Below, piece after piece: positions 12,034-63,992 of a stretch of DNA of 64,000 nt. The notes under the pieces are model-generated. The model was not told the DNA's origin. It was given only the letters and a program-made list of their open reading frames with translations, and ran no database searches. Made by a program: the position numbers and the translations under genes. This DNA comes from Shewanella woodyi ATCC 51908. GTDB lineage: Bacteria; Pseudomonadota; Gammaproteobacteria; Enterobacterales; Shewanellaceae. The stretch covers positions 5,766,001 through 5,830,000 of the forward strand of contig NC_010506.1 of NCBI RefSeq assembly GCF_000019525.1. The letters are read 5' to 3'. How positions within the stretch are numbered: position 1 is the first letter of the stretch; each line of letters starts with the position of its first letter.

Positions 12034-13014
12034 TTAGCCACCGATAGAAGCTAAATGCTGTGTCACACCTGTAATACCGTCGTGGAGGAAGTGTGTCTCT
12101 TTTTTCTGAGCAAGCTGGCCATGAAGCCGCTTAATCAGTTCAGGTCTGTGAGACTCATCTTGCAACAGATCTCTAAGATCGACACCGTTTTCGGTAAACA
12201 GACACAGATGTAACTTACCATTCGCCGATACACGTAACCGATTACAGCTGGCACAGAAGTGTTTGTCATAGGGCATGATTAAACCGATACGCCCTTTATG
12301 ATCATCGCGACTAAAGTTTTGCGCAGGACCATCATCGACCGCAGATTGATCTAAACCCCAGCCATCGGCAAGCAACTGAGATTTAATATCCGCACCGGCA
12401 AGATGGTGTGCTTGGAAATAATCACGCCCAAGTCCCGTCTCCATCAACTCGATAAAGCGCAGATCTATGGGAGTATTTTTAATCCAGTGCAGAAAGCGGG
12501 GCAGATCTTTATCGTTCAAGCCTTTCAGCAGAACCGCATTGATCTTTACCCGTTCAAATCCGGCGTCTAGAGCAGCGTCTATACCACGCATCACCTCATC
12601 GAACTTATTCTCGCCTGTGATCTGATAAAACATCTTAGGATCTAGACTGTCGACCGACACATTGATGCGCCTTAAGCCTGCGTCGTACCACTCTTTAGCA
12701 TGCTTCTCTAAACGGTAACCGTTTGTCGTTGTCGCGATGGTTTTAATCTTATCGTTATCAGCAACCGCACGAATAATATCGGTAAAGTCTTTACGCAGCG
12801 TCGGTTCGCCGCCAGTGATACGAATTTTTTGAGTACCGACTTCAGCAAAAGCTGCGACTAAGTTTTCAATCTCGCTAAGCGCCAAAAACTTAGAACGACC
12901 ATTAGGTCGATAGCCATCGGGGAGGCAGTAAGTACATTTGAAATTACACACATCAGTGACTGACATGCGCAGATAGTGAAACCTTCGACCAAAATTGTCT
13001 TGTAGTTGAGACAT
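12034..13014 (-). CDS. moaA: GTP 3',8-cyclase MoaA (radical SAM)
   Basis: First enzyme of molybdenum cofactor synthesis, 326 residues. It cyclises GTP using S-adenosylmethionine and two 4Fe-4S clusters. The N-terminal radical SAM motif C-x3-C-x2-C is at residues 23, 27 and 30 (CNFKCTYC). The second cluster is in HFCASCNRLRVSANGKLHLC, and the protein ends in the conserved Gly-Gly (ASIGG). The frame is open to 13080, but the ATG at 13012-13014 has AAGGTGATC directly ahead and gives family length. It heads the eight-gene moa-mod run and is preceded by a structured leader. Confidence 0.96.
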   Translation of the reverse strand: MSQLQDNFGRRFHYLRMSVTDVCNFKCTYCLPDGYRPNGRSKFLALSEIENLVAAFAEVGTQKIRITGGEPTLRKDFTDIIRAVADNDKIKTIATTTNGYRLEKHAKEWYDAGLRRINVSVDSLDPKMFYQITGENKFDEVMRGIDAALDAGFERVKINAVLLKGLNDKDLPRFLHWIKNTPIDLRFIELMETGLGRDYFQAHHLAGADIKSQLLADGWGLDQSAVDDGPAQNFSRDDHKGRIGLIMPYDKHFCASCNRLRVSANGKLHLCLFTENGVDLRDLLQDESHRPELIKRLHGQLAQKKETHFLHDGITGVTQHLASIGG

Positions 13015-13349
13015 GATCACCTTTCCAAGTAAGGGGAGGTGAGAGAATTTCTTATCACACCCCGGTGGCGATATTGCCACGGCTTAGCGTCCATATCTGT
13101 TGACGTAGGACAAAAAGCTCGGAGAACCGTCAGTGAGCAATTATAGGCCTATTTGGCCTCTGAACCCTAGCTTTAAAGCGTTATTTCTTGCTCAGGATCA
13201 ATTGAGCGTTAACATTTTGTGACGACACTCACATTCAAAGCAGAGATGCGGTAGACTCATATCACTGTGCCATCGGCTTATTTTGTTGTAAGGTGGTGAG
13301 CATGATTAAAACACCCGTTTAACGGGGAAATGTACCTAGAGGTGAAGTG
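13015..13349. promoter_or_regulatory. Divergent intergenic region between moaA and ETF-QO
   Basis: Holds the moaA leader (left part) and, from about 13141 to 13330, the promoters for moaA and the rightward ETF-ubiquinone oxidoreductase gene. I could not fix -10 boxes with confidence. Confidence 0.5.
13030..13140 (-). ncRNA. Structured moaA leader, probable Moco riboswitch
   Basis: Read leftward, the 130 bp before moaA contain nested helices. GTGGC/GCCAC pairs across AATATC (13064-13080), immediately followed by GGGGTGTGA pairing with TCACCTCCCC (13033-13063). GGAAAGGTG then overlaps the moaA ribosome binding site. Conserved-looking blocks are TCTCCGAGC, CACCGGGG and CACCTCCCC. The placement and block order fit the Moco RNA motif known upstream of moaA in gammaproteobacteria. 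The assignment rests on memory of that motif, not on a covariance search. If right, it would sense cofactor and control the whole moa-mod unit. Confidence 0.6.
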
Positions 13350-25850: not shown

Positions 25851-26825
25851 CTAGTCTTTGTATTTAAGCGTACCATTTTCTTTGATCTCATCGAACCAAA
25901 GGTTGTGGTGCTGACTTGCCCAAGTTTCGTCACAGTAGCCAGACACCATACACTCCATACCACCTTCAGACATAACCGTTGCCATAAAGATATGTACGAT
26001 TGAGAAAGCAGTAATGATGATAGCAGCAACAGAGTGAAGCACTAATGCAATTAAGCTTAATGTACGGCTAGGCTCGAACAAGTTCGGGAATAGCAACAAC
26101 ATACCAGAGGCAGAGATCACTAGACCAAATAGGGCAAATGCCCAGAACCATAACTTCTCACCGGCGTTAGCAAAACCAGCATCAGGGTGTTTACCTTTGA
26201 ATGGACCGAAGTTGATGTAACCACCAACCACCATCATCCACTTAAGGTCATACATCTTAGGTAGCTGATTCTTAGCCCATAAGGTGACCATCAATGCCCA
26301 ACCTAACATGAACGGAATCGCCATGAAGTCATGCACCTGTTTGGCACCGTAGACTAAGCCTGCCCATAGACCTTCACCTATGTATGGCTGGAAGAAGAAA
26401 CGCCCTGCCAACAGAGTCAGACCAGTCAAGATCAACAGCAGACATGGGATCGCACCTAACCAATGGATTGAGACATCAAACTTAGACCAGCGGTAGACCA
26501 ACTTACCTGAGTAGCCACCATGTAGCTTAGAGATACCGTTAATCTTTATGAAAACCACAAAGATGATGATCATGCCAAATAGCGCAGCCATTAACGCTGG
26601 CGCTAATAGGTCGCTACGTAGCTCTAGAACACGAAGATCATAGGTATTGATCGGCTGGTTGTGGAACTCACCGTGAGAGGTAGTCTCACCTGTGGCGCCC
26701 GCTTGTAACTGAGACCAGATCTGACCATCAGTAGCAACAGGCTGCTCTGCTCCAGCTTGAGCTAGGCCGATAGCACTGAACATTAGCACTAAGATCAAGC
26801 CAATCTGTTTGAACCAATTGTTCAT
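25851..26825 (-). CDS. fdhC: Formate dehydrogenase cytochrome b subunit (gamma), operon 1
   Basis: A 324-residue membrane subunit that takes electrons from the Fe-S subunit and reduces quinone via b hemes. An N-terminal signal-like segment (residues 1-25, ending AQAG) precedes a periplasmic stretch and a first TM helix near residues 78-98. Then come the FdnI-type four-helix core with haem-ligand His in FDVSIHWLGAIPCLLL, KQVHDFMAIPF and IVHIFMATVMSEGGMECM. At 324 residues it is much longer than E. coli FdnI (about 217) because of the N-terminal extension. It closes operon 1 and has a close paralogue at 31117. Confidence 0.93.
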   Translation of the reverse strand: MNNWFKQIGLILVLMFSAIGLAQAGAEQPVATDGQIWSQLQAGATGETTSHGEFHNQPINTYDLRVLELRSDLLAPALMAALFGMIIIFVVFIKINGISKLHGGYSGKLVYRWSKFDVSIHWLGAIPCLLLILTGLTLLAGRFFFQPYIGEGLWAGLVYGAKQVHDFMAIPFMLGWALMVTLWAKNQLPKMYDLKWMMVVGGYINFGPFKGKHPDAGFANAGEKLWFWAFALFGLVISASGMLLLFPNLFEPSRTLSLIALVLHSVAAIIITAFSIVHIFMATVMSEGGMECMVSGYCDETWASQHHNLWFDEIKENGTLKYKD

Positions 26826-26892
26826 ATTACATCCTTATCTTCCACACCATGTCGCCATGGTGTGGATAATTGGGCTGAATACAGGCTAGGGA

Positions 26893-27462
26893 TTAACCCC
26901 AGATTGCATTTTTAGAGCCACGGTATGCAACACGCTCACGGAAGATTGAAGAGATAATCTCTGCATCACCCGCAAGTAACGACTTAGTCGCACATAGCTC
27001 AGCACACATAGGCAGCTTACCTTCAGCGATACGGTTAGAACCGTACTTCTGACGCTCAGCATCTGAGAAGTTCTCTTCTGGGCCACCGGCACAGAAAGTA
27101 CACTTGTCCATCTTGCCACGGCTGCCAAATGCACCCTTCTTAGGGAACTGAGGCGCACCAAATGGGCAAGCGTAGAGACAGTAACCACAACCGATACAGG
27201 TATCTTTGTTGTGCAGTGTTAAGCCATCTTCAGTCTTGTAGAAGCAGTTTGCAGGACACACAGCCTGACAAGGAGCGTCGGTACAGTGCATACATGCCAC
27301 TGATATAGATGCTTCACCTGGCACACCATCATTGATGGTAACAACGCGGCGACGTTGAATGCCCCACTCTAGAGCTGAGTCGTTTTCGTTCTTACATGCT
27401 GTGACACAACCATTACATTCGATGCAACGCTTGGTATCACACAAAAATTTCATTGTAGCCAT
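26893..27462 (-). CDS. fdhB: Formate dehydrogenase iron-sulfur subunit (beta), operon 1
   Basis: A 189-residue ferredoxin subunit with four 4Fe-4S clusters: CIECNGCVTACKNEN, CMHCTDAPCQAVCPANC, CIGCGYCLYACPFGAPQFP, and CTFCAGG with a later PMCAELC. It links the catalytic subunit to the cytochrome b. It lacks the C-terminal membrane anchor of E. coli FdnH. Start at 27462 with AGGAGAAATGCCGTT upstream. It lies 29 bp after fdhA1. Its paralogue at 32182 is nearly identical through the cluster region. Confidence 0.95.
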   Translation of the reverse strand: MATMKFLCDTKRCIECNGCVTACKNENDSALEWGIQRRRVVTINDGVPGEASISVACMHCTDAPCQAVCPANCFYKTEDGLTLHNKDTCIGCGYCLYACPFGAPQFPKKGAFGSRGKMDKCTFCAGGPEENFSDAERQKYGSNRIAEGKLPMCAELCATKSLLAGDAEIISSIFRERVAYRGSKNAIWG

Positions 27463-27491
27463 AACGGCATTTCTCCTAGCTAATTCTGCAC

Positions 27492-30347
27492 TTAGGCTTT
27501 AGTGATCTGACAAAGCGATGCTTTCGTTTCTTGCATCTGAGTCACAGGGTCATAACCATAAGTCAATGCAGTGTTAGCTGACTCACCAATAACATAAGGA
27601 ACAGTACCTTCTGGGTAGTTAGGTGCTAAGCTTTCGCCGTGCATCTCACCCGCAAAGTGATAAGGCATCCATGTCACACCAGGTTTAACGCGAGGCGTCA
27701 CCATGGCCTGGATCTTAATACGGCCACCTTCAGCACCCTCTAACCACACAGTGTCGCCGTTACGGATACCGCGATCGGCAGCATCAGCAGGGTTGATCTC
27801 AACAAACATCTCTTGTTGAAGCTCTGCAAGCCATGGGTTAGAACGAGACTCTTCACCACCACCCTCATACTCAACCAAGCGACCAGAGGTCAGACCTAAT
27901 GGGTACTGAGCTGTGTTGTCATTGTCTTGCAATGTCTTGTACAGCGTCGGCAGACGGTGTACTTGCATATCAGCGTAAGTTGGATACTTAGCCACAAGAT
28001 CACGACGTGGCGTATAGATAGGCTCACGGTGAACAGGTACTTGATCAGGGAAGGTCCACACAATACAACGCGCTTTAGCGTTACCAAATGGGATACAGCC
28101 GTGCTTCATAGCCACACGCTGGATACCACCAGAAAGGTCAGTCTTCCAGTTCTTACCGTCAGCTTCAGCTTTCTCTGTCGCTGTTAGGTCATCCCACCAG
28201 CCAAGCTGCTTAAGCATCTCTGCGGTGAACTCTGGATAACCGTCTTGAATTTCGCTGCCCTTAGAGTAGCTACCATCGGCAAGAATGTTCTCACCCTTAT
28301 ATTCCACACCGTAACGAGCACGGAAGTTACCACCACCCTGAAGCACATGTTTGTTTGTGTTATACAGGATCTGTGTACCAGGGTGCTTCTGCTCAGGCGT
28401 ACCCCAACATGGCCAAGGTAGACCGTAAGTTTCACCCTTAGCAGGACCGCCCTCAGCTTCAAGTGTCTTGTTGCTGAACGTACCCCAGTTCATGGTGTGC
28501 TGCTTGATACGCTCAGGACTTTGACCTGACATACCAATTGTCCACATACCACGGTTAATCTCGCGAGTAATATCTTCAATAACAAGCAGATCGTTAGCAT
28601 TCTTAGCGATACGCTTAGTGTACTCATCGGCGAAACCAAGTTTCTGAGATAGACGGTACATGATCTCAAGATCGGTCTTAGACTCGAACAATGGCTCGAT
28701 AACCTTCTCACGCCACTGCTGACTACGGCCAGAGTTAGACACAGAACCTTCAGTTTCAAACTGAGTTGCTGCTGGTAGTAGATAAACACCATTTTGACGA
28801 CGGTGCATAACACCCGCCATCGTTGGGAATGGATCCACAACAACCACAGTGTCCATCTTATCTAGTGCATCACGTACATCACTCTGACGAGTCGCAGTGT
28901 TCACTGACTGACCCCAGAAGAATGCCATACGAACACGGTCTTTCTGAGCTAGTTTCTCAGGTGTCTCAAGTACACCATCATACCAGCGAGAACATGGGAT
29001 ACCAGGAGTGTTCATAGGAACGCGACCTAGGTATTCATTTTGGTCAAAACGATTCTTAACCCAGTCAAAGTCCAGATCCCAAACATGGGTCCAGTGCTTC
29101 CAAGAACCAGTCTTAAGACCGTAGTAGCCAGGTAGCGTATCGAATAGCAGACCTAAATCGGTTGCACCCTGCACGTTATCGTGACCACGGAAGATGTTAG
29201 TACCACCACCAGACACACCCATGTTGCCAAGAGCAAGCTGAAGGATACAGTAAGCACGAGTGTTAGCATTACCCACGTGATGCTGAGTACCACCCATACA
29301 CCAAACTACAGTACCTGGGCGGTTGTCGGCCATAAGCTTAGCGGCTTGATAAACTTCAGCTTCGCTAACGCCAGTAACATGCTCAACCTCTTTAGGTGGG
29401 AACTTCTTCGCTTCTGCGCGAATTGACTCCATCTCGAACACACGCTCTTTGATGAAAGTCTTATCTTCCCAACCATTTTCAAAGATGTGCCAAAGCATAC
29501 CGTAGATAAATGGAATATCAGTACCTGGACGCAATGCACAGTGAAGATCAGAGTGAGCGGCAGTACGAGAGAAACGAGGGTCAACAACGATAATCTTGGC
29601 GTTGTTCTTCTCTTTCGCGAGCAGAATATGCTGCATAGCAACAGGATGCGCTTCAGCAGGGTTCGCCCCGATGAAGAAGATTGCGTTTGCATTCTGAATA
29701 TCGTTGAAAGAGTTAGTTTGCGCACCGTAGCCCCAAGTGTTAGCAACACCGGCTACCGTGGTAGAGTGACAGATACGTGCAGAGTGATCGACGTTGTTCG
29801 TACCCCACATAGCTGCAAATTTACGATACATGTAGCAGCCTTCGTTCGAGAACTTAGCACTACCCATAAAGTAAACAGAGTCAGGACCTGATTCTTTACG
29901 AATGGTCTGCATCTGGTCGCCAACTTCGTTGAAAGCCTGCTCCCAAGATAGTTTCTTCCACTTGCCATCAACAAGCTTCATTGGGTACTTAAGACGCTTC
30001 TCACCGTGACCATGTTCACGAAGAGCTGCACCTTTTGCACAGTGACCGCCCGCGTTGAATGGGTGATCGAAAGCAGGCTCTTGACCTGTCCATACGCCAT
30101 TTTGAACTTCAGCATATAGACCACAACCTACCGCACAAGCACTACATACAGTACGCTTGATCTCGATTGGTGCATCATGTGGGATATCTTTAGCTTCAGC
30201 TTTACGCATCATGCCAGTACCCAAAAGTGAAGCTGCAGCAATACCACCAGATGTGATACCAGCATGCTTCATAAACTGACGACGGCTAATACCTAGAGTC
30301 TTTTTCTCAACTTTAGGTGCCTCGTTGGATTTGCGAGTTAATTGCAT
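27492..30347 (-). CDS. fdhA: Formate dehydrogenase catalytic subunit (alpha), operon 1
   Basis: A 951-residue molybdopterin enzyme oxidising formate to CO2, exported folded by Tat: SRRQFMKHAG at residues 21-30 followed by a hydrophobic stretch. The N-terminal 4Fe-4S cluster uses Cys68, 71, 75 and 103. The metal ligand is Cys193 in RICHSTTVAG, not selenocysteine, and the frame needs no UGA read-through. The two bis-MGD binding halves follow, with GGTNIFRGHDNVQGATD and the C-terminal LTSGRLVEYEGGG. It begins 18 bp after its small Tat-signal partner; GGAGTGTTCGAGCG precedes the ATG. Molybdenum and tungsten cannot be told apart from sequence. Confidence 0.96.
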   Translation of the reverse strand: MQLTRKSNEAPKVEKKTLGISRRQFMKHAGITSGGIAAASLLGTGMMRKAEAKDIPHDAPIEIKRTVCSACAVGCGLYAEVQNGVWTGQEPAFDHPFNAGGHCAKGAALREHGHGEKRLKYPMKLVDGKWKKLSWEQAFNEVGDQMQTIRKESGPDSVYFMGSAKFSNEGCYMYRKFAAMWGTNNVDHSARICHSTTVAGVANTWGYGAQTNSFNDIQNANAIFFIGANPAEAHPVAMQHILLAKEKNNAKIIVVDPRFSRTAAHSDLHCALRPGTDIPFIYGMLWHIFENGWEDKTFIKERVFEMESIRAEAKKFPPKEVEHVTGVSEAEVYQAAKLMADNRPGTVVWCMGGTQHHVGNANTRAYCILQLALGNMGVSGGGTNIFRGHDNVQGATDLGLLFDTLPGYYGLKTGSWKHWTHVWDLDFDWVKNRFDQNEYLGRVPMNTPGIPCSRWYDGVLETPEKLAQKDRVRMAFFWGQSVNTATRQSDVRDALDKMDTVVVVDPFPTMAGVMHRRQNGVYLLPAATQFETEGSVSNSGRSQQWREKVIEPLFESKTDLEIMYRLSQKLGFADEYTKRIAKNANDLLVIEDITREINRGMWTIGMSGQSPERIKQHTMNWGTFSNKTLEAEGGPAKGETYGLPWPCWGTPEQKHPGTQILYNTNKHVLQGGGNFRARYGVEYKGENILADGSYSKGSEIQDGYPEFTAEMLKQLGWWDDLTATEKAEADGKNWKTDLSGGIQRVAMKHGCIPFGNAKARCIVWTFPDQVPVHREPIYTPRRDLVAKYPTYADMQVHRLPTLYKTLQDNDNTAQYPLGLTSGRLVEYEGGGEESRSNPWLAELQQEMFVEINPADAADRGIRNGDTVWLEGAEGGRIKIQAMVTPRVKPGVTWMPYHFAGEMHGESLAPNYPEGTVPYVIGESANTALTYGYDPVTQMQETKASLCQITKA

Positions 30348-30365
30348 CGCTCGAACACTCCTAAT

Positions 30366-30563
30366 TTAGCTACGTAGGCTGTTGTAATAACTGCGAATAT
30401 GATTTGTTTCGTGATAGCCGTCTGTGCTTTTGGCGCTCACATTACTCTCTGTTGCTTGCGCAGCACTGATACCAGTAGCGGCTAGGGCGACAGTCGCCGT
30501 TCCGCCAATGGTGAGTGCTTTCAGCAAAGATCTGCGGTTCAGATCAGGCTGTTGCTTTTTCAT
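30366..30563 (-). CDS. Formate dehydrogenase-associated small Tat-signal protein, operon 1
   Basis: A 65-residue protein with twin-arginine signal LNRRSLLKALTIGGTATVAL and a short polar tail ending HIRSYYNSLRS. It matches the formate dehydrogenase region Tat-target family (TIGR02811), which precedes fdhA in many proteobacteria. It may form a small extra subunit or help export. It is the first gene of operon 1. The tail ETNHIRSYYNSL is nearly repeated in the operon 2 homologue (ETDHVRSYYASL), so that C-terminal motif is the conserved functional part. Confidence 0.9.
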   Translation of the reverse strand: MKKQQPDLNRRSLLKALTIGGTATVALAATGISAAQATESNVSAKSTDGYHETNHIRSYYNSLRS

Positions 30564-31116
30564 TCTTGCTCCTGGTGTGAATAGGGTTACTTTTTGTTAT
30601 TTGTAATAGCCAGAACATCTTTATCGATTAACCTCTAGCGCGGTCACTTGTTATCCAAGTGTTATCTTTTAACGAATTGCTATGTACAAAGTTTTGATTA
30701 TTAAAAGCATCCATAAATTTCATGGGCAATATAAGAGAATTGATAAGCGGAAAAATTGATCTAACCCCGATTCAGATCTCGAAAAAGAGGTTATTACCTC
30801 TAAAGTGTTAACCGAATCATGTTTTATAAAATACGAGTGGGGAGGAGGGTCAAAAGTAGCAACAAGAAAGCAAATAAAATGTTAACAACGGTAATAAGTT
30901 AAGTTGTTTTTAATTAAGGTAAATGGCAATTGAGAGTGATTACTACTTAACCGATTTACAGCAAAAATAGAGCCTAAAAACTTAGATAAAAGAGGGATAA
31001 TAGATAAAAATATACCTGCTCTCTTGTGTACTCATTGATTAATAATACAGCTCCCATAAAAAAGCCCCAGCTAATGCTAGGGCTTTTGATCTTCAATTAA
31101 GACTGATAGCGTATAG
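30564..31116. promoter_or_regulatory. Intergenic region upstream of formate dehydrogenase operon 1
   Basis: About 550 bp, AT-rich, with no supported gene. It contains the operon 2 terminator (31058-31088) at its right end and should hold the operon 1 promoter at its left. A 17-bp interrupted palindrome CACTTG-TTATC-CAAGTG occurs at 30645-30661, about 80 bp upstream of the first start; it may be an operator but matches no site I know. No canonical FNR or CRP box was found by eye. Confidence 0.5.
31058..31088 (-). terminator. Terminator of formate dehydrogenase operon 2
   Basis: Stem AAAAGCCCTAGC/GCTGGGGCTTTT around ATTA on the leftward strand, with one mismatch and a run of T. It lies about 30 bp after the fdhC2 stop. 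Confidence 0.85.
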
Positions 31117-32130
31117 CTAGTCTTTATACTCCAATGTGCCGTTCTCTTTGATCTCGTCATACCAAAGATTATGGTGCTGTACAGCCCAGTTTTCATCACA
31201 ATAACCGGACTTCATACACTCCATACCACCCTCACTCAATACCGTCGCCATCCAGATATGCACGATAGTAAACGCGATGATAATAATGGCACTTAAGCCA
31301 TGGATAAGCAGAGCAGCCATCGAGGCTTCGCGAGGAAGCTCTAGGCCAGGCAATACCAGCATAATACCGGAAACACTGATAAACAGACCGAAGATAGCTA
31401 AGGTCCAGAACCACATCTTCTCACCCGCATTGGCAAAACCACTGTCAGGGTGCTTCCCTTTAAATGGTCCAAAGTTGATGTAACCACCAACCACAAGGAA
31501 CCATTTCAGGTCATACATCTTAAGCGTCTGCAGCGGCATCCACTTAACCACACATAAGATCCATGACACGATAAACAGCGGACCCACATAATCATGGATA
31601 GTCTTACTGCCGTATATCAGTGCGGCCCACACTCCTTCACCCACATAAGGTTGAAGAATATGTTTGCCCAGCATGATATTGATACCCGTGAATATTAACC
31701 CCAAACATGAGATGGCTAATACCCAGTGGATAATCAGATCGGCCTTCGACCAACGCAACACCATTTTACCGGAGAAGCCTTTGGTTAGCTTTGAAGGGCC
31801 GTTAACAAAATAGAAGATTAAGAAGGCAGCAAATACCCCAAGTACCGCCACTCCCATGGCAGGTGTCAGGTATTCATTCTTAATGTTTTTGCCTTCATTA
31901 CCGACAACATTAATTAGTACGCCGGCCTCACTCCCTTGGGCAACGGTATAACCGGAATCACCGGCCTTAACAGCACGCCAAAGATCCGCATCACTGGTTT
32001 TTGCATTCGCAATTTGTTGGCTGTTTTGTCCATCTGCGGCTAAGGCTGATGTACTCAAACCTAAACCCATTAAGATAACGAGCGGTAAAACAAGCGAAGC
32101 AAACAGGCTGCGTAGTGATGTTAATTTCAT
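31117..32130 (-). CDS. fdhC: Formate dehydrogenase cytochrome b subunit (gamma), operon 2
   Basis: A 337-residue paralogue of the operon 1 cytochrome b subunit. The start at 32128-32130 is preferred to the frame limit at 32169 because AAAGGAGTGACT precedes it and a signal peptide (SLFASLVLPLVILMGLGL... ALAA) then follows. The four-helix core repeats the same haem-ligand segments: ADLIIHWVLAISCLGL, KTIHDYVGPLF, IVHIWMATVLSEGGMECM. The C-terminus (NLWYDEIKENGTLEYKD) is almost the same as in copy 1. The N-terminal third diverges most between the two. Confidence 0.93.
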   Translation of the reverse strand: MKLTSLRSLFASLVLPLVILMGLGLSTSALAADGQNSQQIANAKTSDADLWRAVKAGDSGYTVAQGSEAGVLINVVGNEGKNIKNEYLTPAMGVAVLGVFAAFLIFYFVNGPSKLTKGFSGKMVLRWSKADLIIHWVLAISCLGLIFTGINIMLGKHILQPYVGEGVWAALIYGSKTIHDYVGPLFIVSWILCVVKWMPLQTLKMYDLKWFLVVGGYINFGPFKGKHPDSGFANAGEKMWFWTLAIFGLFISVSGIMLVLPGLELPREASMAALLIHGLSAIIIIAFTIVHIWMATVLSEGGMECMKSGYCDENWAVQHHNLWYDEIKENGTLEYKD

Positions 32131-32181
32131 AGTCACTCCTTTAAGAGTTGAGTTGTGAGCTAAGCTCACAACTCACTTCAC

Positions 32182-32772
32182 TTACGCGCCAACCTTGGGA
32201 GTGTAACCCCAAATAGCACCTGGGTTACCACGTGCAGCAACACGCTCACGGTAGATGTTAGATACGATCTCAGCATCACCAGCGAGAAGAGACTTAGTGG
32301 AACACATCTCTGCACACATAGGTAACTTACCCTCTGCAATACGGTTTGCACCGTACTTTTCACGCTCAGCTTCTGAGAAGTTCTTCTCAGGGCCACCAGC
32401 ACAGAAGGTACACTTGTCCATCTTGCCACGGCTACCAAAGGCACCCTTTTTAGGGAACTGAGGCGCGCCAAACGGACATGCATAGAGACAGTAACCACAA
32501 CCGATACAGGTATCCTTGTTGTGAAGTACTATGCCGTCGTCGGTACGGTAGAAACAATCTGCAGGACAGACTGCCTGACAAGGTGCATCAGTACAGTGCA
32601 TACAAGCCACTGATATTGACGCCTCACCTGGCTCACCATCATTGATTGTCACTACGCGGCGACGTTGAATTCCCCACTCAAGAGCGGAATCGTTTTCATT
32701 CTTACAAGCTGTGACGCAACCGTTACACTCGATGCAGCGTTTGGTGTCACACAAAAATTTCATGACTGCCAT
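32182..32772 (-). CDS. fdhB: Formate dehydrogenase iron-sulfur subunit (beta), operon 2
   Basis: A 196-residue four-cluster ferredoxin subunit, near-identical to the operon 1 protein over the first 150 residues (CIECNGCVTACKNEN, CMHCTDAPCQAVCPADC, CIGCGYCLYACPFGAPQFP). The Cys-to-Cys spacing is unchanged. The last ~10 residues (GYTPKVGA) are extra. It lies 26 bp after fdhA2 and 51 bp before the cytochrome gene. Confidence 0.95.
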   Translation of the reverse strand: MAVMKFLCDTKRCIECNGCVTACKNENDSALEWGIQRRRVVTINDGEPGEASISVACMHCTDAPCQAVCPADCFYRTDDGIVLHNKDTCIGCGYCLYACPFGAPQFPKKGAFGSRGKMDKCTFCAGGPEKNFSEAEREKYGANRIAEGKLPMCAEMCSTKSLLAGDAEIVSNIYRERVAARGNPGAIWGYTPKVGA

Positions 32773-32798
32773 ATTGGCTATCTCCTCATCAAGTTCAG

Positions 32799-35648
32799 TT
32801 AGGCTTTAGTGATCTGACACAAAGATGCTTTTGTTTCCTGCATCTGAGTCACCACGTCATAGCCATAGGTCAGTACCGTGTTAGCTGACTCGCCAATCAC
32901 ATAAGGTACGGTTCCTTCAGGGTAGTTTTTCTCTAAGCTCTTACCTTCGAATACACCTGCGAAGTGGTAAGGCATAAAGCACTCTCCCGCGATAACGCGT
33001 GGCGTCACCATGGCCTGAACTTTAATTTTGGCGCCTTCTGGACTGTGAACCCAAACTTCATCACCGTCACGAAGTGCACGATCCGCTGCATCAGCAGGGT
33101 TGATCTCGATGAACATCTCCTGTTGCAACTCGGCAAGCCAAGGGTTAGAACGAGTCTCTTCACCACCACCCTCATACTCAACTAAACGACCAGAGGTCAG
33201 TGCAATTGGGAAGTCTTTGGCAAAATCCTGCTCCTGAATAGACTTATACAGGGTAGGAAGACGCGCAACCATACGGTCATCATAAGTCGGGTACTTAGCC
33301 ACCAAGTCACGACGAGGCGTATAGAGTGGCTCACGGTGCAACGGAATATCGTCAGGGAAGTTCCAAACAATACAACGCGCTTTAGCGTTACCGTAAGGGA
33401 TACAACCGTGCTTAATCGCCACGCGTTGAATACCACCAGAGATATCTGTCTTCCAGTTTTTACCTTCGGCAGCCACCTTTTCTTCAGCTGTCAGATCGTC
33501 CCACCAGCCAAGCTGCTTAAGCATATCGGCGGTAAACTCAGGATAACCGTCTTGGATCTCACTGCCTTTAGAGTAAGAACCTTCCGCAAGAATGTTATTG
33601 CCGTTATGTTCAACACCATAACGAGCACGGAAGTTACCACCACCGTTTTTCACTTCACGACCTGTGCGGTACAAGATCTGCGAACCAGGGTGCTTCATCT
33701 CTGGCGTGCCCCAACATGGCCAAGGCAGACCGTAGGTTTCGCCCTTAGCTGGGCCACCTGGTGCTTCAAGGGACTTAATGTCGAAGGTACCCCAGTTTTC
33801 CTGATGCATCTTCAAACGCTCAGGGCTCTGGCCTGTGTAACCAATGGTCCACATACCCTTGTTGAACTCACGAGTGATATCTTCAATCAGTGGCTCGTCA
33901 CCATTGACCTTAATATGCTTAAATAACTCTTTATCTATGCCCCATTTCTTGGCGAGCTTGCACATAATCACGTGATCAGGCTTAGACTCGAATAGAGGTT
34001 CGATAACTTGTGAGCGCCACTGCAGTGAGCGGTTAGAAGCGGAAACAGAACCGTAGGTTTCAAACTGAGTAGAAGCAGGAAGCAGATACACACCATCGGT
34101 ACGTTCATGCATCACACCCGCCATAGTCGGGAACGGATCAACGACCACAACTGTGTCCATCTTATTCAGTGCTTCACGCACTTCACGACCACGGGTTTCG
34201 GTGTTAACTGATTGTCCCCAGAAGAAAGACATACGGATATTATCTTTCTGGGCAATCTTAGACTTGTCTTCAAGCACACCATCATGCCAGCGAGAACAAG
34301 GGATACCGGTTGAGTTCATTGGAACCTGACCTAAGTGCTCCTCTTGATCGAAGCGGTTTTTAACCCACTCATAATCAAGATCCCACACATTACACCAGTG
34401 CTTCCAAGAGCCTGTTTTCAGGCCGTAGTAGCCAGGAAGTGTATCAAACAGCAAACCAAAGTCGGTGGCGCCCTGAACGTTATCGTGACCACGGAAGATG
34501 TTAGTTCCACCACCAGAGACACCCATGTTACCCAGTGCAAGCTGGAGAATACAGTAAGCACGAGTATTGGCATTACCGACATGGTGTTGAGTACCACCCA
34601 TACACCAAACAACGGTACCAGGCTTAGTCTCTGCAAGCATCTTAGCCACGCGGCGCATCTGCTTCTCTGGTACGCTAGTCACTAGCTCAACTTCGGCAGG
34701 GTTCCACTTAGCAGCCTCTTCGCGAATACGCTCCATACCGTACACACGTTGGTCGATAAAGGTTTGATCTTCCCATTTATTTTCAAAAATATGCCAAAGC
34801 AGACCATAGATGTATGGGATATCGGTACCTGGACGAATATGCACATATTCATCCGACTTAGCCGCGGTACGGCTAAAGCGAGGGTCAACGACGATAATCT
34901 TAGCGCCGCGCTCTTTACCCGCCAGAATATGCTGCATGGCAACTGGATGCGCTTCACATGGGTTAGACCCGATGAACATCATCGCCTTAGCATTACGGAT
35001 ATCGTTAAAAGAGTTAGTTTGCGCACCATAGCCCCAAGTGTTTGCAACACCGGCTACAGTGGTAGAGTGACAAATACGCGCTGAGTGATCGACATTGTTA
35101 GTGCCCCACATCGCTGCGAACTTGCGGTACAGATAAGCTTGCTCGTTTGAAAATTTCGCGCTACCCATGAAGAACACAGAATCTGGGCCTGATTCCTTAC
35201 GGATATCTAATGCTTTTTGACCTACCTCTTCAATGGCTTGATCCCAAGAGATCTTCTTCCATTTGCCACCCTCGAGTTTCATTGGGTATTTAAGACGCTT
35301 CTCACCGTGACCATGTTCACGAAGGGCCGCACCTTTTGCACAGTGACCACCAGCGTTAAATGGATGATCAAATGCAGGCTCCTGACCAGTCCAAACACCA
35401 TTTTGCACTTCAGCATAAACACCACAACCCACTGAACAGTGAGAACAGATAGTACGCTTAGTTTCGGTCGGTGCATCATGTGGCACCTCTTTCGCCTGCG
35501 CTTTACGCATCATTCCAGCGCCAAGCATAGATGCCGCGGCAATACCACCAGTTGCAAGACCTGCAGACTGAAGGAACTGACGACGATTAAGACCTAAGGC
35601 TGGTTTTTTTACCACTTCCGCCTGGTCTGCTTTGCGAGTTAGTCGCAT
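32799..35648 (-). CDS. fdhA: Formate dehydrogenase catalytic subunit (alpha), operon 2
   Basis: A 949-residue paralogue of the operon 1 catalytic subunit. The ATG at 35646-35648 is used, not the adjacent GTG, given GAGGAGTGTGTG upstream. The Tat signal NRRQFLQSAG is at residues 21-30, cluster Cys at 68, 71, 75 and 103, and metal ligand Cys193 in RICHSTTVAG. The numbering is collinear with copy 1 to beyond residue 200. Differences are spread along the length, with the most around residues 265-330 and 560-610, so this is an old duplication and not a recent one. The same reaction is expected, with possibly different expression or metal. Confidence 0.96.
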   Translation of the reverse strand: MRLTRKADQAEVVKKPALGLNRRQFLQSAGLATGGIAAASMLGAGMMRKAQAKEVPHDAPTETKRTICSHCSVGCGVYAEVQNGVWTGQEPAFDHPFNAGGHCAKGAALREHGHGEKRLKYPMKLEGGKWKKISWDQAIEEVGQKALDIRKESGPDSVFFMGSAKFSNEQAYLYRKFAAMWGTNNVDHSARICHSTTVAGVANTWGYGAQTNSFNDIRNAKAMMFIGSNPCEAHPVAMQHILAGKERGAKIIVVDPRFSRTAAKSDEYVHIRPGTDIPYIYGLLWHIFENKWEDQTFIDQRVYGMERIREEAAKWNPAEVELVTSVPEKQMRRVAKMLAETKPGTVVWCMGGTQHHVGNANTRAYCILQLALGNMGVSGGGTNIFRGHDNVQGATDFGLLFDTLPGYYGLKTGSWKHWCNVWDLDYEWVKNRFDQEEHLGQVPMNSTGIPCSRWHDGVLEDKSKIAQKDNIRMSFFWGQSVNTETRGREVREALNKMDTVVVVDPFPTMAGVMHERTDGVYLLPASTQFETYGSVSASNRSLQWRSQVIEPLFESKPDHVIMCKLAKKWGIDKELFKHIKVNGDEPLIEDITREFNKGMWTIGYTGQSPERLKMHQENWGTFDIKSLEAPGGPAKGETYGLPWPCWGTPEMKHPGSQILYRTGREVKNGGGNFRARYGVEHNGNNILAEGSYSKGSEIQDGYPEFTADMLKQLGWWDDLTAEEKVAAEGKNWKTDISGGIQRVAIKHGCIPYGNAKARCIVWNFPDDIPLHREPLYTPRRDLVAKYPTYDDRMVARLPTLYKSIQEQDFAKDFPIALTSGRLVEYEGGGEETRSNPWLAELQQEMFIEINPADAADRALRDGDEVWVHSPEGAKIKVQAMVTPRVIAGECFMPYHFAGVFEGKSLEKNYPEGTVPYVIGESANTVLTYGYDVVTQMQETKASLCQITKA

Positions 35649-35686
35649 CACACACTCCTCATATTATTATCTTTAGTTAGTGCTAC

Positions 35687-41951: not shown

Positions 41952-42084
41952 GTTGTTTTCTTTTTAGCGTGAATCGGCATGGTTACTTAGCGAGATTTGA
42001 AACCTTATGAAGTAAGGCCACAACTTCTATCTTTCTTGGTATTTGATAGATTACTGCTACTCAAACCTTCACTTATATCTATAG

Positions 42085-42203
42085 CCTGCGGCCCGCTGAA
42101 TGTGCAGCTACTTCTACGAGACGCTGTGAATATGTCCCTATACGCTCTACGGTTTCATCCCTGAAACCGAAGCTCGCAGCAGTATCTACACCTAGTTATC
42201 ACT
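42085..42203. repeat. Palindromic dispersed repeat, family 1, copy A
   Basis: A roughly 119-bp element with an outer imperfect inverted repeat (42102-42118 with 42175-42191, 13 of 17 matching) and an inner perfect 8-bp hairpin CGGTTTCA-TCCC-TGAAACCG at 42150-42169. It aligns over its whole length to copy B at 63874-63992. It lies in the 514-bp gene-free stretch 41845-42358, of which the rest holds only the terminator and AT-rich spacer. Confidence 0.8.
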
Positions 42204-42358
42204 CTCTTCGACTTAGTTTTATTAGTAGATCATCCAACCAATACTATCGGTATCCATTAGAGGGCAAATAATTTGCTGCAGCAACTGTGCTTATAGCGAG
42301 AGAGATATCTAACTAGCCTTGAAAATTGGCTTACATGCTCCCCCCCACGGGCGAGCGA

Positions 42359-63766: not shown

Positions 63767-63873
63767 TTTATCACCTCTCTTACGATAGAGGTTAGCTCGT
63801 TTTAGATGGTTTCATCTGGCGTTATGGGTACTTGGTGGTTTTATGGTATCCATAACTTTGCTGGTATGAATAA

Positions 63874-63992
63874 CCTGCAGTTCGCTGATGTGCAGATACT
63901 TCTGTGACACGGCACGAGTATATCCCTATAGCCTCTACGACAGCATCCTTGCTGTCGAAAGGTCACAGCCACATCTGCACTGGTTGATTAAC
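63874..63992. repeat. Palindromic dispersed repeat, family 1, copy B
   Basis: A roughly 119-bp element aligned with copy A at 42085-42203. Its outer arms (63890-63908 with 63962-63980) match at 15 of 19 positions. Its inner hairpin is CGACAGCA-TCCT-TGCTGTCG at 63938-63957. Four of the eight inner base pairs differ from copy A and are all changed on both sides, so pairing is kept. It lies after the hutI hairpin (ACCTCT/AGAGGT, 63773-63792). Confidence 0.82.

Follow-up and report, generated by a model that had tools for sequence, protein, structure and literature searches.

Two stretches of a 64,000-nucleotide piece of the Shewanella woodyi genome (hereafter the window, part of a single contig of 5,935,403 bases) resemble each other in sequence and in folding capacity, which raises the question of what kind of element they represent. 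The first-pass annotation had described them as copies A and B of a structured repeat with compensated changes in an inner stem, and had concluded that the fold is under selection. Reading the same strand directly, we found the inner stem of copy A to be CGGTTTCA-TCCC-TGAAACCG (42150-42169) and that of copy B to be CGACAGCA-TCCT-TGCTGTCG (63938-63957); stem positions 3-6 differ and 4/4 changes are compensated, as described. The core stretch reads GTCCCTATA in copy A and ATCCCTATA in copy B. After the two copies themselves, the best matches of a covariance model of the family (R1) in the window are the opposite strands of A and B (16.1 and 15.1 bits), followed by chance level. The repeat is real, but the extent first assigned to it (42085-42203 and 63874-63992) exceeds the conserved folded core, which lies in both copies inside a larger end of about 210-250 bp. 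The features are:

42102..42191, minus strand: folded core of copy A, a three-way junction of 90 nt (R1, 99.4 bits)
42150..42169, minus strand: hairpin H2 of copy A (the inner stem described earlier), loop AGGGAT on this strand; from reading and family alignment
42131..42142, minus strand: hairpin H1 of copy A, loop AGGGA on this strand; from reading and family alignment
42002..42101, minus strand: outer part of copy A with closing hairpin 42002-42019; boundary set by analogy with other copies and the extent of family conservation
42204..42213, minus strand: inner box of copy A, related to AATCGAAGAG; direct reading
63890..63980, minus strand: folded core of copy B, 91 nt (R1, 97.4 bits)
63938..63957, minus strand: hairpin H2 of copy B, loop AAGGAT on this strand; from reading and family alignment
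63919..63930, minus strand: hairpin H1 of copy B, loop AGGGAT on this strand; from reading and family alignment
63774..63889, minus strand: outer part of copy B with closing hairpin 63774-63791; boundary inferred

The inner box of copy B is found just beyond the window end. The genes upstream of A and B encode a protein with HTH and PBP-like domains and an amidohydrolase. Elsewhere, the window contains a molybdenum cofactor riboswitch (13002-13136; RF01055, 93.5 bits) and a tandem duplication of approx. 5.3 kb (25851-35651) with stretches of 69-84% identity and paired ORFs of 951 and 950 aa.

Chance can be excluded as the source of the likeness between A and B, because DNA searches of the genome with queries of 161 bases surrounding A and 151 bases surrounding B returned 43 and 38 matches, respectively (E ≤ 1; the weakest are marginal), and R1 detects 82 copies in the S. 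woodyi genome (E ≤ 0.01), or 85 in a second search over the fetched regions. For the alignment, 43 copies (38 distinct) were used out of 60 loci fetched; eight duplicates of the same places and six copies with hairpin inserts were left out, as were L021 (5′ side replaced), L056 (partial) and L060 (chance match). RNAalifold predicted 28 pairs from this alignment, 21 of them with compensated changes. The fold is a three-way junction made up of an outer stem, a bulge of 5-6 nt and two hairpins whose loops read A-N-GGA. Applied to the 38 distinct copies, a 31-pair structure, which was written down after the alignment had been read, is paired in 97.0% of 1178 cells (80.7% when shuffled), with changes on both sides in 23/31 pairs. 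Covariation was 0.541 compared to 0.235 in shuffled alignments (0/500 shuffles reach the observed value) and at most 0.118 for slid partners, while the count of pair types alone was unremarkable in these copies (63/500 shuffles). Outside Shewanella, 98 loci yielded a further 121 copies (120 distinct) that had no part in building R1; they were paired in 96.2% of 3635 cells with both-sided changes in 29/31 pairs, in an alignment fitted to R1 and hence biased towards pairing. Covariation amounted to 0.863 in this set (0.190 shuffled, slid partners ≤ 0.113); again, the pair-type count alone was unremarkable (393/500 shuffles). Selection for the fold, claimed initially from two copies, is supported by the paired fraction of 97.0% and the strong covariation. 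Additional copies with unpaired inner stems had been named in advance as evidence against it; that paired fraction, obtained from the 38 distinct copies, is the outcome of this check. The covariation of the inner stem was correctly recognized, but hairpin H1 and the outer stems, which covary too, had gone unnoticed. Several of the 85 copies (L018, L041, L045, L057, L058 and others) contain nested inserts of approx. 50 nt or more, placed in the loop of H1 or H2 or just past the core, and several of these inserts can form hairpins on the opposite strand whose loops show the A-N-GGA motif.

Imperfect pairs indicate which of the two strands folds. On the TCC strand, which had been read originally, A.C pairs outnumber G.T pairs by 62 to 19, and 13 of the 19 occupy the loop-adjacent position of H1. 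The GGA strand of 80 distinct copies shows 214 G.U against 18 A.C pairs, a count in which one mostly constant G.U pair swells the G.U side. Divided by the end types defined below, the numbers are 85 vs 7 (type I), 93 vs 9 (type II) and 36 vs 2 (untyped), and outside Shewanella 85 vs 22. Since G.U is tolerated mainly on the GGA strand, selection therefore acts on this strand, either as RNA or as single-stranded DNA. For A and B, the A.C vs G.U imbalance identifies the minus strand as the folded one, opposite to the strand chosen by the first-pass annotation, which also missed the feature that is actually kept, a pair of A-N-GGA loops spaced 20 nt apart. The loops match this motif nearly throughout: uninterrupted loops carry it in 71/73 (H2) and 71/72 (H1) cases among the 85 copies, after exclusion of 12 and 13 copies whose loops hold long inserts, and outside Shewanella it is present in both loop regions of 111/121 copies.

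Hairpin loops with A-N-GGA represent the CsrA motif, and at least two of them, as expected of a CsrA/RsmA-binding RNA, are found here. The GGA strand could accordingly be read as an RNA element whose two loops form a putative CsrA/RsmA dimer site, serving either as CsrA sites within 3′ regions or as a sponge dispersed over the genome, in which case the position at the ends of mobile units (see below) would be a means of spread. The near-universal presence of the motif in H1 and H2 inside and outside Shewanella agrees with this, as does the presence of csrA in the genome (PF02599, 92.5 bits, plus a weaker second match); Rfam, on the other hand, yields no CsrB/Rsm match in the window or in eight loci. 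As explained in the following, we consider such an RNA function, although it is the chief competing reading, unlikely to account for the family.

Conservation starts approx. 30 bases before the core, reaches to approx. 210 past the core start and then falls sharply. The outer part occurs in two kinds, with a closing hairpin that is either GCCTTCATTCGAAGGC-like (type I) or ACTTGTTATCCGACAAGT-like (type II). A script using motifs that the analyst chose after having read the copies assigned 35 of the 82 copies to type I and 30 to type II and left 17 untyped, including A and B. An inner box with 9 or 10 of 10 letters is located at most 70 nt 5′ of the core in 72/82 copies. Neighbours on opposite strands less than 20 kb apart are always ordered '-' then '+', i.e., they face outward, in 39/39 cases from three genomes (18/18 in S. 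woodyi, 13/13 and 8/8 in the relatives G011 and G443); the S. woodyi pairs enclose 0.95-7.8 kb. Wherever both ends are typed, an S. woodyi pair combines type I with type II (14/14), and typed neighbours on the same strand share their type (16/16). In the two relatives, 7/8 double-typed pairs follow the rule, the exception being L372 (called I/I). Outside Shewanella, 17 of 28 adjacent pairs are '-+' and one is '+-' (inward order); 45-266 bp separate the ends in 14 of the 17. Reading of six such loci showed the outer stems of the two ends to be unlike each other, and for four of these pair ends the fold is much more stable than in shuffled sequences (z −5.9 to −9.9). Many copies stand alone or in tandem. 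Copies A and B are solo ends of this probable cassette family: their nearest neighbours in the family lie too far off or on the same strand, and no cargo is assigned to them. The early advice to search for a transposon sharing these ends proved sound; what had been recognized was the repeat, but not its role as one end of a two-ended unit. Outward pairing and the two-type rule are left unexplained by a CsrA function, and at type I ends it is the strand antisense to the cargo that folds, with an equal bias towards G.U. Because of this antisense position, the mobility of the units and the two-type rule, a role at the DNA level is favoured; both roles may exist together.

With respect to their setting, 36/82 copies lie between convergent and 7/82 between divergent ORFs. 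This would suit terminators or insulators at gene ends, with pairs arising where such sites are tolerated, but 39 outward against 0 inward pairs, the combination of type I with type II and the existence of empty sites (see below) make this explanation highly improbable. A reading as terminators was rejected, as the T-tract after the outer hairpin is inconsistent when inspected by eye and empty sites exist. Insertion at tRNA genes was not apparent, with a tRNA in only 2/45 S. woodyi regions, and a replication-strand bias is weak (52/82 copies run with replication, if the contig ends are assumed to be the origin). A stretch of 1.64 Mb in the S. woodyi genome (1,979,174-3,623,696) contains zero copies, though IS200 copies are frequent there; this is not general, as G011 has copies at 2.08-3.11 Mb of its 5.5 Mb.

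The flanks of 12 S. woodyi units were sought in G011 and G443. Four units gave both flanks close together, and the remaining eight were uninformative, with a flank absent or the two flanks in different places. Three units are empty in G011, where the flanks lie side by side without an R1 match, and two of these are also empty in G443. At the empty site of unit 5557209/5558712 the flanks are 425 bp (G011) and 415 bp (G443) apart, at that of unit 3788005/3790204 270 bp and 299 bp, and at that of unit 4719833/4722826 370 bp in G011; in G443, this last site holds a different small ORF between a type I end and the outer part of a type II end. At the site of the fourth unit, 3755162/3757171, G011 carries an outward pair with 511 bp between its members, and G443 has 891 bp with no R1 match but with a fragment of outer sequence of type I. 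For two conserved outer genes, the relatives were inspected at nine loci each, and in either case one locus had a copy next to the gene; one of the loci, L310, ends approx. 300 bp beyond the gene. No target-site duplication was seen by eye at the outer boundaries, the relatives being only approx. 75% identical at the empty sites and thus too distant for a base-exact junction. Presence and absence at otherwise matching sites, by which MITE-like non-autonomous elements are recognized, is documented by the three empty sites.

ORFs were defined by a longest-ORF rule (≥80 aa), with no gene finder. The 31 units of the three genomes comprise 61 ORFs, among which only two homologous ORF pairs connect different units and no recombinase common to all units was found. 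Pfam domains were matched by 8/30 S. woodyi cargo ORFs (1e-3). PADLOC models were matched by 11/20 cargo proteins (1e-5), a set picked mostly by size or Pfam match rather than at random and including no outer gene. The models are PD-Lambda-1, IetA-like, GajA, the adjacent NsnA, NsnB and NsnC, a type IV restriction enzyme, AriAB, Mads-like, endonuclease-effector-like and a reverse transcriptase, the last being a group II intron maturase according to Pfam. One further unit encodes DUF2357 with PDDEXK_7 and a C5 DNA methylase. Cargo that is not defence-like also occurs, e.g., a Questin oxidase or a LuxR-type regulator, and most small cargo ORFs have no known function. The direction of the cargo ORFs is from type I to type II in 51/60 cases. 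ORFs for group II intron reverse transcriptase/maturase in L362 (3812-5326) and L371 (1813-3327) constitute the sole large gene family common to two units (G011, G443). The outer genes of the 31 units are convergent in 21 cases and divergent in one, and 10/10 of those examined have ordinary Pfam domains, including SpoU methylase, malic enzyme, pseudouridine synthase, peptidase S46 and AMP-binding. IS110-type ORFs near two clusters were dismissed, as their identical scores suggest one repeated IS. In L308 (G439), the malic enzyme gene adjoins a relative of a 204-aa ORF (L138:7171-7785) that in S. woodyi is found beside another unit, 3.2 Mb away; from this arrangement, the ends might serve as rearrangement points.

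A RAYT-like (Y1) transposase had been named as something to look for. One lies near some S. woodyi copies and is a candidate for acting on them: P0001 (325 aa) matches Y1_Tnp and REP_Tyr_transpos with scores under the curated thresholds (20.5 vs 23 and 38.9 vs 80 bits), and a HUH motif and a tyrosine are conserved between P0001 and its 11 homologues (L373, listed as a twelfth, being P0001 again). Within S. woodyi, 7/13 P0001-family loci lie at most 2.5 kb from a copy, which applies to 5.7% of the genome (binomial P 2.5e-6), and two are inside units. For IS200, 1/13 is within 2.5 kb (by eye), a biased control with 8/13 in the copy-free stretch. By length and host group only, P0001 fits TnpA-Y1 subclass 2.3, which PMC6006769 reports to be without identifiable flanking REP-like structures. 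A REP-like system, in which P0001 cuts and moves the ends and these are the missing REP-like partner, would be a specific form of the mobile-cassette explanation. The clustering near copies and the conserved HUH motif and tyrosine speak for it, as does the published lack of a partner. Nevertheless, we regard it as rather improbable. Besides the sub-cut-off domain matches, P0001 is missing both from the unit regions fetched for G011 and G443 (15 in all) and from 158 further loci, no R1 copy stands beside any of the 11 homologues elsewhere, and a tetranucleotide GT[AG]G, CGTC or CGAC lies within 12 nt of the foot in only 2/82 copies. In the class-wide sample described below, R1 and P0001 co-occur in 20 genomes (hand count; 10.7 expected) and P0001 occurs alone in 35, but 52/72 R1-positive genomes are without P0001 (E 1e-20). 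P0001, which may be ordinary cargo, is a weak candidate for the mover of the units.

R1 matches were detected in 22/24 genomes of the genus (S. woodyi included), in 4/16 genomes from other families of the order and in 72/369 genomes sampled over the class (with at most 11 candidates scored per genome). A pattern scan gave at least 101 R1 matches in at least 80 loci; the matches listed include Arenimonas, Stenotrophomonas, Lysobacter, Methylotuvimicrobium, Halomonas/Vreelandella, Pectobacterium, Yersinia, Glaciecola, Neiella, Alishewanella and one Desulfobulbaceae MAG. In 6/8 Yersinia and Pectobacterium loci, the Rfam family RF02770 (Ysr224, Yersinia sRNA 224) reaches or exceeds its gathering score, each match overlapping R1. 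However, Ysr224 is on the opposite (TCC) strand, has another fold and is described as a single sRNA, and paired ends with cargo are no part of its description. In eight Shewanella loci, Ysr224 scores at most 21.6 of the 70 bits required. If our reading is true, an Rfam sRNA family overlaps the end of a mobile element. In Yersinia massiliensis (L234, 5119-5488), a GlmZ sRNA is directly followed by a Ysr224/R1 match, on opposite strands.

We conclude that A, B and their family are probably the termini of small mobile gene cassettes that are moved in trans and whose ends are recognized as folded strands. Observed parts of this are the fold, the folded strand, outward pairing, the combination of types I and II, the varied cargo, the lack of a shared recombinase and the empty sites. 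A complete unit would run from a type I end over a cargo of one to a few genes to a type II end, the ends being inverted so that the outward-running strand at each of them can fold into the three-way junction. Most units lie downstream of genes, frequently between convergent ones, and their cargo usually points from I to II. An enzyme supplied in trans would recognize the folded outward strand at both ends, as single-stranded DNA or as an extruded hairpin, and move the unit; solo and tandem ends would then be leftovers or nested insertions. That the recognized strand is DNA we infer, as RNA would give the same covariation. More tentatively, with the odds close to even but not quite in its favour, the units may form a class of mobile cassettes, undescribed in the papers and libraries consulted, distributed over much of the Gammaproteobacteria, recombinase-less, with two non-identical folded ends whose stem sequence serves as a type code, and carrying defence and other accessory cargo in trans-dependent fashion into sites downstream of core genes. 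Searches of open-access papers for repeats with CsrA/RsmA, for mobile cassettes or RAYT with defence cargo, for folded inverted repeats in Shewanella and for Yersinia repeats listed none that describes such units, although publication elsewhere is possible. If true, this names a carrier for defence genes and genes of unknown function standing singly in gammaproteobacterial genomes; the covariance model, outward pairs and the two-type rule would provide a handle for systematic cargo finding, and a Y1 transposase subclass reported to have no partner structure would gain a candidate.

Several known systems share single properties with these units. Hairpin loops with an A-N-GGA-like motif are typical of CsrB/RsmX-type sRNAs and of TwoAYGGAY. 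The likeness to both (Weinberg, 2010, for TwoAYGGAY) is restricted to these loops, since we deal with repeated ends here and not with a single RNA gene as in the CsrB/RsmX type; TwoAYGGAY was ruled out by the lack of a match in Rfam scans of the window and eight loci. REP/REPIN sequences with TnpA-REP (RAYT) are comparable in being intergenic, palindromic and present in many copies and inverted pairs, with a Y1-type transposase in the genome. According to PMC6006769, REPs are 21-65 nt long and their foot carries the tetranucleotide GT[AG]G. In contrast to such short hairpins, the core is a 90-nt three-way junction of 31 pairs in an end of about 210-250 bp, a foot tetranucleotide in the 12 nt 5′ of the core is confined to the two copies mentioned above, and two non-identical end types enclose kilobases of cargo. 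Integron cassettes carry varied accessory and defence cargo of one to few genes, have no cassette recombinase and use folded single-strand sites. The units described here are like them in all of these respects, with folded ends in place of the sites, but have two inverted ends of unlike type per unit and are scattered over the chromosome instead of forming one array.
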